Part shown: piece after piece, positions 52,640-64,000 of the stretch
How positions within the stretch are numbered: position 1 is the stretch's first letter
Layout of the letters: each line of letters starts with the position of its first letter
Assembly (NCBI GenBank): GCA_949710005.1
Contig: OX453277.1
Span: forward strand, 1,305,001 to 1,369,000
Reading direction: 5' to 3'
DNA from: Ricordea florida
Lineage: Eukaryota > Cnidaria > Anthozoa > Corallimorpharia > Ricordeidae
Length of the DNA: 64,000 bases
Notes under the pieces: model-generated
Seen by the model: only the letters and a program-made list of their open reading frames with translations
What the model was told of the DNA's origin: nothing
Databases searched by the model: none
Position numbers and translations under genes: made by a program

Positions 52640-55195
52640 AACGTACTAAGGGAATGAATAAGAACGTACAAGCTCATCTGTCCTTAGTACTAACGTACTA
52701 ACGTACTAAGGGAATAAATAAGAACGTACGACCTCATCGGTCCTCAGTACTAGGGTACTAACGTACTAAGGGAATAAATAAGAACGTACGAGCTCATCTG
52801 TCCTTAGTACTAGCGTACTAACGTACTAAGGAAATGAATAAGAACGTACAAGCTCATCTGTCCTTAGTACTAGCGTACTAACGTACTAAGGGAATAACTA
52901 AGAACGTACGAGCTGCTCTGTCCTTAGTACTAGCGTACTAACGTACTAAGGAAATGAAGAAGAACGTACGAGCTCATCTGTCCTTAGTACTAGCGTACTA
53001 ACGTACTAAGGGGATAAATAAGAACGTACGAGCCCATGTGTCCTTAGTACTAGCGTACTAACGTACTAAGGGAATAAATAAGAACGTACGAGCTCATCTG
53101 TCCTTAGTACTAGCGTAATAACGTACTAAGGGAATAAATAAGAACGTACTAGCTCATCTGTCCTTAGTACTAACGTACTAACGTACTAAGGGAATAAATA
53201 AGAACGTACGAGCTCATCTGTCCTTAGCACGAACGTACTAACGTACTAAGGGAATAAATAAGAACGTACGAGCTCATCTGTCCTTAGTACTAGCGTACTA
53301 ACGTACTAAGAAAATGAATAAGAACGTACGAGCTCATCTGTCCTTAGTACTAGCGTACTAACGTACTAAGGGAATAAATAAGAACGTACTAGCTCATCTG
53401 TCCTTAGTACTAACGTACTAACGTACTAAGGAAATGAATAATAACGTACGAGCCCCTGTGTCCTTAGTACTAGCGTACTAACGTACTAAGGAAATGAATA
53501 AGAACGTACGAGCTCATCTGTCCTTAGTACTAGCGTACTAACGTACTAAGGAAATGAATAAGAACGTACGAACTCATCTGTCCTTAGTACTAGCGTACTA
53601 ACGTACTAAGGGGATAAATAAGAACGTACGAATTCATCTGTCCTTAGTACTAACGTACTAACGTACTAAGGAAATGAATAAGAACGTACGAGCTCATCTG
53701 TCCTTAGTACTAGCGTACTAACGTACTAAGGAAATGAATAAGAACGTACGAGCTCATCTGTCCTTAGTACTAACGTACTAACGTACTAAGGAAATGAATA
53801 AGAACGTACGAGCTCATCTGTCCTTAGTACTAGCGTACTAACGTACTAAGGAAATGAATAAGAACGTACGAGCTTATCTGTCCTTAGTACTAGCGTACTA
53901 ACGTACTAAGGGGATAAATAAGAACGTACGAACTCATCTGTCCTTAGTACTAGCGTACTAACGTACTAAGGGGATAAATAAGAACGTACGAGCTCATCTG
54001 TCCTTAGCACTAGCGTACTAACGTACTAAGGGAATAAATAAGAACGTACGAACTCATCTGTCCTTAGTACTAGCGTACTAACGTACTAAGGGAATAAATA
54101 AGAACGTACGAACTCATCTGTCCTTAGTACTAGCGTACTAACGTACTAAGGAAATGAATAAGAACGTACGAACTCATCTGTCCTTAGTACTAGCGTACTA
54201 ACGTACTAAGGGGATAAATAAGAACGTACGAATTCATCTGTCCTTAGTACTAACGTACTAACGTACTAAGGAAATGAATAAGAACGTACGAGCTCATCTG
54301 TCCTTAGTACTAGCGTACTAACGTACTAAGGAAATGAATAAGAACGTACGAGCTCATCTGTCCTTAGTACTAACGTACTAACGTACTAAGGAAATGAATA
54401 AGAACGTACGAGCTCATCTGTCCTTAGTACTAGCGTACTAACGTACTAAGGAAATGAATAAGAACGTACGAGCTTATCTGTCCTTAGTACTAGCGTACTA
54501 ACGTACTAAGGGGATAAATAAGAACGTACGAACTCATCTGTCCTTAGTACTAGCGTACTAACGTACTAAGGGGATAAATAAGAACGTACGAGCTCATCTG
54601 TCCTTAGCACTAGCGTACTAACGTACTAAGGGAATAAATAAGAACGTACGAACTCATCTGTCCTTAGTACTAGCGTACTAACGTACTAAGGGAATAAATA
54701 AGAACGTACGAACTCATCTGTCCTTAGTACTAGCGTACTAACGTACTAAGGGGATAAATAAGAACGTACGAGCTCATCTGTCCTTAGTACTAGCGTACCA
54801 ACGTACTAAGGGAATAAATAAGAACGTACGAACTCATCTGTCCTTAGTACTAGCGTACTAACGTACTACGGGGATAAATAAGAACATACGAGCTCAACTG
54901 ATTACTAGCGTAGTAACGTACTAAGGAAATGAATAAGAAGGTACAAGCTCATCGTTAAGTTAGTACTAGCGTACTAACGTACTAAGGGAATAAATAAGAA
55001 CGTACAAGCTCATCTGTCCTTAGTACTAGCGTACTAACGTACTAAGGGAATGAATAAGAACGTACGAGCTCATCTGTCCTTAGTACTAGCGTACTAACGC
55101 ACTAAGGGAATGAATAAGAACGTACGAGCTCATCTGTCCTTAGTACTAGCGTACTAACGCACTAAGGGAATGAATAAGAAGGTACGAACTCATCT
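52640..55195 (+). repeat. 60-bp satellite, left array (about 42 copies)
   Basis: A strict 60-bp period: TCCTTAGTACTAGCGTACTA begins a unit nearly every 60 bases from about 52680 to 54900, then with a small phase slip to 55195. Each unit also holds ACGTACTAAGG, AATAAGAACGTACGAGCTC and ATCTG. The left edge decays over 52500-52640. CCTTAGTAC and GTACTAAGG form a dyad in each unit. The same satellite in reverse orientation lies at 61190-64000. Confidence 0.97.
53521..54720 (+). repeat. Duplicated 600-bp higher-order block (10 units) in the left array
   Basis: The ten units at 53521-54120 carry a pattern of variants (AATTCATCTG, TAACGTAC, AGCTTATCTG, TCCTTAGCAC and others). The same pattern recurs in the same order at 54121-54720. 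The match ends at 54721, where the expected variant is absent. This indicates a recent unequal exchange of ten units. Confidence 0.9.
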
Positions 55196-55439
55196 GTCCT
55201 TATTGTTCAAAGATGGCGTGTGGGTTTGTCATGGCTGCAGCTATGTATCTGTAGGAGAAGGCGGCTGCTCTAATTTGATCTTGTACGGGGGGCGGAGAGC
55301 AAAGATAATGCGGGAGTACTTTTGCGCATTCAGCTTTGCAAGCATGGACTGCTGTTCTACCGCGGGAAGCTCCGCAGCGTAATTCTCGAAGATACATTTT
55401 ACAATAACTGAGCGAATTCTCGCGCGCTGATTGGCTAAT

Positions 55440-61012: not shown

Positions 61013-61189
61013 TGGAAAATTTTAAAAGATGTGTGTACGTGAGATAGAAAAGTGGCCCGAGTTTAAAAATTTTACGAATTATTCGTGTGCGCCGTGGCCC
61101 TTTGGCTTGAGTTCGAAAATAAACCCAAAACCCCGTCTAAGCCGCGACGCCACGAACTACGGGCCAAGCCAATTTCCCTGAAATTCATA

Positions 61190-64000
61190 AGTCCTACCCG
61201 TACGCTAGTACTAAGTACAGATGAGCTCGTAAGTTCTTATTCACTCCTTAATACGTTACTACGCTAGTACTAAGGACAGATGAGCTCGCACGTTCTTATT
61301 CATTTCCTTAGTACGTTAGTACGCTAGTACTAAGGACAGATGAGCTCGCACGTTCTTATTCATTTCCTTAGTACGTTACTGCGCTAGTACTCAGGACAGA
61401 TGAGCTCGTACGTTCTTATTCATTCCCTTAGTACGTTAGTACGCTACTACTAAGGACAGATGAGCTCGTACGTTCTTATTCATTCCCTTAGTACGTTAGT
61501 ACGCTAGTACTAAGGACAGATGAGCTCGAACGTTCTTATTCATTTCCTTAGTACATTAGTACGCTAGTACTAAGGACAGCTGAGCTCGTACATTCTTATT
61601 TATTCCCTTAGTACGTTAGTACGCTAGTACTAAGGACAGATGAGCTCGTACGTTCTTATTCATTCCTTTAGTACGTTAGTACGCTAGTACTAAGGACAGA
61701 CGAGCTCGTACGTTCTTATTCATTCCCTTAGTATGTTAGTACTAAGGACACATGGGCTTGTACGTTGTTATTTATTCCCTTAGTACGTTAGTACGCTAGT
61801 ACTAAGTACAGATGAGATCGTACGTTCTTATTCATTTGCTTAGTACGTTAGTACGCTAGTACTAAGGACAGACGAGCTCGTACGTTCTTATTCATTCCCT
61901 TAGTACGTTAGTACTAAGGACACATGGGCTTGTACGTTCTTATTTATTCCCTTAGTACGTTAGTACGCTAGTACTAAGGACAGACGAGCTCGTACGTTCT
62001 TATTCATTTCCTTAGTACGTTAGTACGTTAGTACTAAGGACACATGGGCTCGTACGTTCTTATTCATTCCCTTAGTACGTTAGTACGCTAGTACTAAGAA
62101 CAGATGAGCTCGTACGCTCTTGTTTATTCCCTTAGTACGTTAGTACGCTAGTACTAAGGACAGATGAGCTCGTACGTTCTTCTTCATTTCCTTAGTACGT
62201 TAGTACGCTAGTACTAAGGACAGATGGGCTCGTACATTCTTATTTATTCCCTTAGTACGTTAGTACACTAGTACTAAGGACAGATGAGCTCGTACGTTCT
62301 TATTCATTCCCTTAGTACGTTAGTACGCTAGTACTAAGGACAGATGAGCTCGTACGTTCTTATTTATTCCCTTAGTACGTTAGTACGCCAGTACTAAGGA
62401 CAGATGAGCTCGTACGTTCTTATTCATTCCCTTGGTACGTTAGTACGCTAGTACTAAGGACACATGGGCTCGTACGTTGTTATTTATTCCCTTAGTACGT
62501 TAGTACGCTAGTACTAAGAACAGATGAGCTCGTACGTTTTTATTCATTTCCTTAGTACGTTAGTACGTTAGTACTAAGGACACATGGCCTCGTACGTTGT
62601 TATTTATTTCCTTAGTACGTTAGTACGCTAGTACTAAGAACAGATGAGCTCGTACGTTCTTATTCATTTGCTTAGTACGTTAGTACGCTAGTACTAAGGA
62701 CAGATGAGCTCGTACGTTCTTATTTATTCCCTTAGTACGTTAGTACGATAGTACTAAGGACAGACGAGCTCGTACGTTGTTATTCATTCCCTTAGTACTA
62801 AGGACACATGGGCTCGTACGTTCTTATTTATTCCCTTAGTACGTTAGTACGCTAGTACTAAGGACAGATGAGCTCGTACGTTCTTATTCATTCCCTTAGT
62901 AGGGTAGTACGTTACTACTAAGGACAGATGAGCTCGTACGTTCTTATTTATTCCCTTAGCACGTTAGTACGCTAGTACTAAGGACAGATGAGCTCGTACG
63001 TTGTTATTTATTCCCTTAGTACGTTAGTACGCTAGTACTAAGGGCAGATGAGCTCGTACGTTTTTATTCATTTGCTTAGTACGTTAGTACGCTAGTACTA
63101 AGGACAGACGAGCTCGTACGTTCTTATTCATTCCCTTAGTACGTTAGTACTAAGGACACATGGGCTTGTACGTTCTTATTTATTCCCTTAGTACGTTAGT
63201 ACGCTAGTACTAAGGACAGACGAGCTCGTACGTTCTTATTCATTTCCTTAGGACGTTAGTACGTTAGTACTAAGGACACATGGGCTCGTACGTTCTTATT
63301 CATTCCCTTAGTACGTTAGTACTAAGGACACATGGGCTTGTACGTTCTTTTTTACTCCCTTAGTACGTTAGTACGCTAGTACTAAGGACAGACGAGCTCG
63401 TACGTTCTTATTCATTCCCTTAGTACGTTAGTATGTTAGTACTAAGGACACATGGCCTCGTACGTTCTTATTTATTCCCGTAGTACGTTAGTACGCTAGT
63501 ACTAAGGACGGATGAGCTCGTACGTTCTTATTTATTTTCTTAGTACGTTAGTACGCTAGTACTAAGGACACATGGGCTCGTACGTTCTTATTTATTCCCT
63601 TAGTACGTTAGTACGCTAGTACTAAGAACAGATAAGCTCGTACGTTCTTATTCATTTCCTTAGTACGTTAGTACGTTAGTACTAAGGACACATGGGCTCG
63701 TACGTTGTTATTTATTCCCTTAGTACGTTAGTACGCTAGTACTAAGGACAGATAAGCTCGTACGTTCTCATTCATTCCCTTAGTACGTTAGTACGCTAGT
63801 ACTAAGGACAGATTAGCTCGTACGTTCTTATTCATTCCCTTAGTACGTTAGTACGCTAGTACTAAGGACAGACGAGCTCGTACGTTCTTATTCATTCCCT
63901 TAGTACGTTAGTATGTTAGTACTAAGGACACATGGCCTCGTACGTTCTTATTTATTCCCGTAGTACGTTAGTACGCTAGTACTAAGGACGGATGAGCTCG
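61190..64000 (-). repeat. 60-bp satellite, right array, inverted relative to the left
   Basis: The plus strand reads TTAGTACGTTAGTACGCTAG then TACTAAGGACAGATGAGCTC and GTACGTTCTTATT(C/T)ATT, the exact reverse complement of the left unit. At least 46 units are present and the array continues past the window end. A second variant with CACATGGGCTCG alternates with the CAGATGAGCTCG form. Several units lack 8 bases (ACGCTAGT), giving 52-bp units (for example near 61735 and 61915). Confidence 0.97.

Follow-up and report, generated by a model that had tools for sequence, protein, structure and literature searches.

In Drosophila virilis, the terminal inverted repeats of the foldback transposon Tetris contain internal tandem repeats that have become satellite-like arrays (PMC4079207). 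Here, we describe an element of related build in the corallimorpharian Ricordea florida, found in a stretch of 64,000 nucleotides (the window; contig OX453277.1 of assembly GCA_949710005.1, positions 1,305,001 to 1,369,000), where two inverted arrays of a 60-bp satellite enclose a cassette of virus-like genes. Like this element, Tetris is apparently non-autonomous and has tandem repeats inside its terminal inverted repeats, and it provides a precedent for foldback ends turning into satellite, but its unit is about 220 bp rather than 60 bp and its published abstract reports no viral cargo, whereas the cargo here is a capsid module of a Polinton (PMC4079207). Galileo, of the P superfamily, shares long, internally repetitive terminal repeats with unequal ends and has chimeric copies without matching duplications, but it has its own transposase, a 7-bp duplication and two to three repeats of about 210 bp, whereas the present element has an 8-bp duplication and arrays of kilobases (PMC3573991). 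Teratorn, a piggyBac-herpesvirus fusion in medaka, likewise unites virus and DNA transposon into a single mobile unit, but it is 180 kb long, active in transposition and mostly herpesvirus, whereas the element described here is 9–15 kb long with a partial Polinton gene set, satellite at its ends and no transposase seen (PMC5601938). Outside DNA transposons, borrowed ends have a precedent in a module carried between terminal repeats of the Penelope-like kind, with a duplication of 8 bp (PMC6431247).

From the analysis below, we conclude that the element is probably a non-autonomous foldback-type DNA transposon that carries a Polinton capsid module, has the satellite as its inner terminal repeats and is moved in trans. 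Transposition by an enzyme encoded at another place in the genome is likely because an 8-bp target is duplicated at 8 of the 11 loci with two complete tips; a duplication of this length is typical of both the hAT and P superfamilies. The Tlr elements of Tetrahymena are also virus-like with tandem repeats in their inverted repeats, but their unit is 19 bp, their arrays are much shorter, and host and gene set differ. Each kind of component is already known, and it is the combination of foldback-type ends, satellite and Polinton module in one unit that is new. The open-access literature (PMC, titles and abstract openings) yielded no Polinton module between satellite ends, with subscription literature mostly outside that search.

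One element at 16 loci

Tandem Repeats Finder reported a 60-bp unit with 43 copies at 52625-55202 and 47.5 inverted copies at 61200-64000. A 57-bp pattern derived from the unit, with at most three mismatches allowed, matched 79 times in the window, always on the plus strand in the left array and always on the minus strand in the right one, with 0 matches expected from 100 shuffles. The two arrays are thus the same satellite in opposite orientation, as an earlier note on this DNA had claimed. Their monomers are hardly distinguishable, with mean identities of 93.6% within the left array, 91.2% within the right array and 91.9% between the two. That note had also taken the whole visible terminal repeat to be satellite, which holds for its inner part only, because outer tips of about 160 bp lie beyond the arrays. 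The window element begins at 52458 with a 156-bp tip that precedes the left array, and on the other side the array ends at C6:1369323 and is followed by the second tip (C6:1369334-1369502), which finishes 502 bases outside the window.

For genome-wide searches we used the source assembly (538 Mb, 48 contigs), naming loci as contig:Mb, with the window copy on C6. A satellite dimer gave 764 matches, with 40 of 47 first-look candidates scored, and about 150 of these matches were listed and read for their places. By our reading, the matches listed fall at 17 places, 16 of which contain the cassette, and 14 of the 17 have the layout of plus strand on the left and minus strand on the right. A search with a piece of the major capsid protein (MCP; 142 matches scored among 5545 candidates) gave 19 matches at 77–100% identity and 123 at about 48–50%. 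The 16 capsid copies with an identity of at least 84% belong to the 16 satellite elements, that on C12 being seen on one side, and the copies at 77–80% (C8:16.90, C3:20.96 and C3:21.39) had no tip or satellite among the matches listed. A third search, with the Polinton protein p540 (122 of 5477 candidates scored), returned these 16 loci again, at identities of 68% and above, followed by weaker relatives, the best of which reach 64–67% over part of the query among the matches listed. Satellite unit, MCP and p540 therefore co-occur at the same 16 loci, a link that the earlier note had raised, and cassette-free satellite was seen at one of the 17 places listed.

Fourteen elements were fetched in pieces, namely the window copy and 13 more, while sequence was seen at both ends of C8:24.55 and only at the right end of C12:11.29. 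The layout is a tip of about 160 bp, an array, the cassette, the inverted array and a second tip, with 5.5–6.8 kb between the arrays and 9–15 kb in all. The same cassette is flanked by satellite on both sides in all 14 fetched elements. The junction with the array falls at cassette base 1 in all 14 (C2:4.28 being read across two stretches) and at cassette base 6000 in 13, the exception being C3:5.46. Arrays that were read through measure 782–6214 bp and differ in length on the two sides of one element. The middle of 4 of the 28 arrays was unread (both arrays of C5 and the right arrays of C13:12.95 and C2:4.28), with satellite matches spanning the gap, and the longest of these would be 7.9 kb; the right array of C6:22.66 enters a run of N. 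Because the same arrangement was found again at other loci and on other contigs, an assembly join in the window is very unlikely.

The two kinds of tip are called end A (CATATGCTGCC...) and end B (TATACCATGCC...). Together they make up an imperfect inverted repeat, with an alignment score of 63.5 against a largest score of 49 in 1000 shuffles. One A tip and one B tip, each with its outermost bases, were present in 11 of the 14 fetched elements; the other three have a truncated B (C5), B at both ends (C2:30.7) or a run of N (C6:22.66). At 8 of the 11 two-tip loci, a perfect 8-bp duplication abuts the tips: ATCCAGAG, TCTTCCTT, ATGGGGGA, ATTTTGAA, GAGAGCGA, ATTATTAT, CCCAATAA and AGTCAAGG. That of C2:4.28 was taken directly from its flanking sequence, and the chance of an 8-bp match is 1.5e-5 per locus. 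The 40-base flanks are unlike at all 14 fetched loci, although the right flank of C6:22.66 reads N. The duplications sit outside the tips that enclose arrays and cassette, so transposon-type ends surround the viral genes and the whole was inserted as one unit. The outer ends and further cassette copies that the earlier note had proposed looking for were found, and so were target-site duplications, at eight loci other than the window. Two further observations concern the tips. At C2:30.7 (L021, L023), an extra piece of end A lies about 0.9 kb beyond the element, and end B (L034:2212-2380) has in some copies a short self-complementary stretch at query bases 36-75.

The cassette and a local Polinton

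Open reading frames (ORFs), Pfam and homolog searches agree that the genes between the arrays are virus-like, as had been proposed. The window cassette is a frame-broken copy with two Polinton hallmarks, a double-jelly-roll MCP and a packaging ATPase of the A32/FtsK type, although the ATPase scores 19.4 bits with Pox_A32, below the curated cut-off of 22.8. A Pfam scan of eight cassette ORFs, taking in the window copy only, gave no transposase match. In IMG/VR, no relative was found with the capsid piece, with either of two family profiles or with a 16-base satellite word; the single match to the word, in a 17-kb contig (L001) without a close tip copy, may be chance. GTDB genomes scanned with the p540 profile yielded no relative either.

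One of the capsid copies at about 50% identity, C15:2.49 (L044:1917 to L050:2227), belongs to a complete Polinton, 15.3 kb long, in which several long frames are open. Its genes encode a polymerase-like protein of 1345 aa, an rve integrase (Pfam E 3.1e-8), the capsid protein, an A32 ATPase (Pox_A32 E 1.1e-11), a membrane protein, a 162-aa protein and p540. We take the 1345-aa protein to be polymerase-like from the motifs YLDANNLYG and DTDS. It had no polymerase match in Pfam, NCBIfam, PHROG or PDB; its matches in Pfam and PHROGs are a stretch of endonuclease VII and some weak ones. The ends read AGAGAG..CTCTCT, with a duplication of 5 bp, or 6 bp when the final T is assigned to the target, and ends of this style are of the Maverick type (PMC8097293).

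Five window genes match this Polinton, those for the capsid (47–50%), the ATPase (53%), the membrane protein (51%), the 211-aa protein (32%) and p540 (43–49%), while the 190-aa protein has no match in it. The replication and integration proteins were compared at E 1e-3 with 23 stretches that cover most of the cassettes of the 14 elements. The polymerase-like protein matched none of them, and the integrase matched one, in the flank of C3:8.38 outside the element, and none inside a cassette. This flank holds a Polinton integrase at L031:7903-8499, 86% identical to that of C15:2.49 and about 3.6 kb past the element end. Given the five matches and the lack of polymerase-like and integrase matches, the cassette is a Polinton structural module with no recognizable replication or integration genes and with a gene order unlike that of the local Polinton.

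The cassette is like Polintons/Mavericks in its capsid protein and packaging ATPase, and it has three further genes in common with the local Polinton, but the 8-bp duplication and CATAT/TATAC tips of the element differ from the 6-bp duplication and AG/AGT-type ends of Polintons (PMC8097293, PMC4028283). Unlike a full Polinton, which has a protein-primed PolB and an rve integrase, the cassettes have no match to the local polymerase-like or integrase protein. The C15:2.49 Polinton is probably not the direct source of the cassette, because its guanine-plus-cytosine (GC) content is 35–36% as against 54%. The Polinton load of the genome looks high from the 5545 first-look capsid candidates, which are candidates and not copies. 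Cnidarian capsid genes fall outside the main Maverick cluster (PMC10120064).

Variation between copies

The closest cassettes are 99.5–99.9% identical, and identity over the full span is 87–99.9% with group-specific indels. Between the window and C13:12.54, the cassettes have 8 differences in 6000 bases while the left arrays measure 2.58 and 1.92 kb; unequal exchange would be the simplest explanation for such changes in array length from copy to copy. The array monomers show no grouping by element. In C6:6.29, C7:28.6 and C6:22.66 (L034, L035, L036, L037, L026, L027), the cassette has the reverse orientation with respect to the tips, and recombination between the inverted arrays can explain this.

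The MCP frame has the same 281-aa split in seven copies and is open over 423 aa in two others. Because the seven have a split frame of one length, the copies spread most simply as passengers after the capsid gene broke; a programmed frameshift is possible. The ratio of nonsynonymous to synonymous substitution rates (dN/dS) among copies is mostly 0.4–1.1, and outliers between 0 and 4.6 occur where there are few changes. For the larger capsid piece in the group of C4:11.9, C4:35.6, C2:4.28 and C4:3.43 it is near 0.10 (six non-independent pairs, with averages of 2.5 and 7.5 changes), and for the other pieces in this group it is 0.36–2.0.

Origin of the satellite

The motif GTACTA occurs four times per satellite monomer and five times in end A, a count reached in 0 of 2000 shuffles. 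It is absent from the cassette and has a density of 0.19 per kb in the first 52 kb of the window. Tips were also found at 24 places (15 A, 9 B) with no capsid or p540 match within 20 kb, among the matches listed. The satellite most likely belongs with the transposon that carries the viral genes, because GTACTA is shared by tips and satellite and absent from the viral cassette, because tips occur elsewhere without a listed cassette match and because the 8-bp duplication differs from the 5–6 bp of the local Polinton. These observations do not support the suggestion that the satellite derives from the virus. The other half of that suggestion, which makes the satellite part of the terminal repeats of the element itself, is supported, since the arrays make up the inner portion of these repeats at the 16 cassette loci and have fixed junctions with the cassette.

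The array may have grown out of subterminal GTACTA motifs of the transposon, and these motifs may be transposase binding sites. For Galileo, tandem repeats in the transposon ends have been put forward as possible transposase binding sites (PMC3573991).

Features of the window copy

Coordinates are collected in the table. Region 55441-55564 forms a strong hairpin in window-type copies (DNA fold z -8.0). The hairpin was considered as a replication origin and dropped, since it is cut in C2:30.7 and since the other two groups (4 + 3 fetched copies) do not have it. The 190-aa protein is perhaps the minor capsid protein, judging from a resemblance. A p540 family model was poor (predicted local distance difference test, pLDDT, 62; predicted template modeling score, pTM, 0.52), and no fold search was based on it. 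GC content is 53.6% in the cassette as against about 40% in the arrays and about 40% in the first 52.4 kb of the window.

Two more minisatellites lie in the host DNA of the window, with 37-bp units at 10152-11700 and 18-bp units at 37338-37963. Another dispersed satellite, a tandem repeat of 106-110 bp, lies at 32904-33252 and at L042:395-998 near the C14 array, on opposite strands, as matched by eye.

Table. Features of the window copy (window positions)
Feature	Position	Strand	Evidence or remark
Left outer tip, end A, starts CATATGCTGCC	52458..52613	+	156 bp; 98% identity to another copy's end A
Left satellite array, 43 x 60 bp	52625..55202	+	
Cassette, 6.0 kb, common to 16 loci	55201..61200		blastn pieces at 87-99.9% identity in 13 other fetched copies
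Hairpin, arms ~30 bp, flanked by 24-bp direct repeats	55463..55530		In 6/14 fetched copies
Packaging ATPase, A32 type, C-terminal piece	55581..56117	-	Pox_A32 E 7.8e-4; 53% to local Polinton ATPase
Packaging ATPase, P-loop piece, other frame	55850..56092	-	ORF; match to local Polinton
MCP, C-terminal piece	56089..56904	-	428 homologs; family fold double-jelly-roll
MCP, N-terminal piece, other frame	56792..57286	-	47% to Polinton MCP over 111 residues
Membrane/coiled-coil protein, N-terminal piece	57360..57902	+	ORF
Membrane/coiled-coil protein, C-terminal piece, other frame, one internal stop	57901..58287	+	51% to Polinton 426-aa protein, E 3e-34
p540 fragment (Polinton protein of ~540 aa, role unassigned)	58279..59265	-	998 homologs; 43-49% to Polinton protein
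p540, upstream piece of same reading frame, ahead of in-frame stop	59305..59595	-	
190-aa protein	59604..60176	+	13 homologs; no match in local Polinton
211-aa protein with hydrophobic stretch	60296..60931	+	32% to Polinton 162-aa protein, E 1e-18
Right satellite array, inverted	61199..64000	-	Extends 323 bases beyond window

Discussion

The element has the features of a foldback-type transposon, namely terminal inverted repeats that are largely tandem repeats and a duplication of a fixed 8 bp. A Polinton module would have been captured between the ends of such a transposon, the tips would be cut by a DNA transposase supplied in trans, and the seven split-capsid copies would have spread once the capsid gene had broken. 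Several observations weigh against this. No transposase for the element was identified, a negative that has no genome-wide hAT or P transposase search behind it. The window copy (CTTGGCCA / GTTGCCCA, which agree at 6 of 8 bases), C3:8.38 and C4:3.43 are without a perfect duplication, and the unpaired 8-mers of these copies found no partner when compared by eye across copies. In Galileo, a lack of matching duplications marks copies that are chimeras of two others (PMC3573991), and by analogy those described here could be chimeras as well. At C14:22.00 (L043:558-1644), an array and end A occur with no cassette in the adjoining 10 kb; this place may be a remnant or may hold a relative that has different cargo, and further cassette-free satellite places may have escaped, as about 150 of 764 matches were listed. 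None of the 24 tip places without a listed cassette match nearby showed both ends, and they may be remnants. The excess of GTACTA in end B is weak (two, with as many in 19 of 2000 shuffles).

A different reading makes the element a capsid-coding satellite virus of Polintons, with the arrays and tips as its own genome ends and with polymerase and integrase borrowed from full Polintons. The retention of capsid and packaging genes as a set, the capsid frame open over 423 aa in two copies and the low dN/dS of the capsid piece in the group of four, where changes are few, are what such a virus would show. We nevertheless consider it unlikely, because the 8-bp duplication is unlike the 5–6 bp of the local Polinton, tips are present elsewhere without a listed cassette match, the other pieces of the low-dN/dS group reach 0.36–2.0, seven other copies are split in the capsid frame, and GC content changes from 54% in the cassette to 40% in the arrays. 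It is similarly doubtful that a Polinton module that lost its polymerase and integrase is now a capsid-coding satellite agent inserted by foldback ends, replicated and perhaps packaged by helper Polintons, with its terminal motif now a host satellite.

Two further explanations are much less probable. The earlier note had allowed that the virus went into a satellite of the host and was inverted there; in the form of a Polinton-like virus that integrated into an existing satellite, one flank of which was inverted later, this is very improbable and already contradicted. One shared satellite pool would give monomers that do not group by element, as we observe, but tips and junctions are common to the 14 fetched loci on different contigs, all but one of the 17 satellite places listed hold the cassette, and the DNA abutting the tips differs at each fetched locus, with duplications at eight. 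That the 16 loci are segmental duplications or assembly artifacts of one locus is hardly credible. The near identity of the closest cassettes and the three two-tip loci without a duplication would fit such copying, but the 14 sets of flanks differ (with the N noted above), the eight 8-bp duplications are each specific to a locus, and cassette identity goes down to 87% with group-specific indels. We therefore favor the foldback-type transposon with a Polinton capsid module as its cargo.

Such an element joins three subjects that are usually studied apart, namely viral capsid genes, transposon ends and the birth of satellites. Because the copies are graded, with cassettes 87–99.9% identical and arrays from 0.8 to at least 6.2 kb, they let satellite growth and homogenization be traced copy by copy. 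If our reading is true, a Polinton structural module can part from its own replication and integration genes and spread by ends with a different target duplication, and counts of endogenous viruses made from capsid genes can include transposons with viral cargo.

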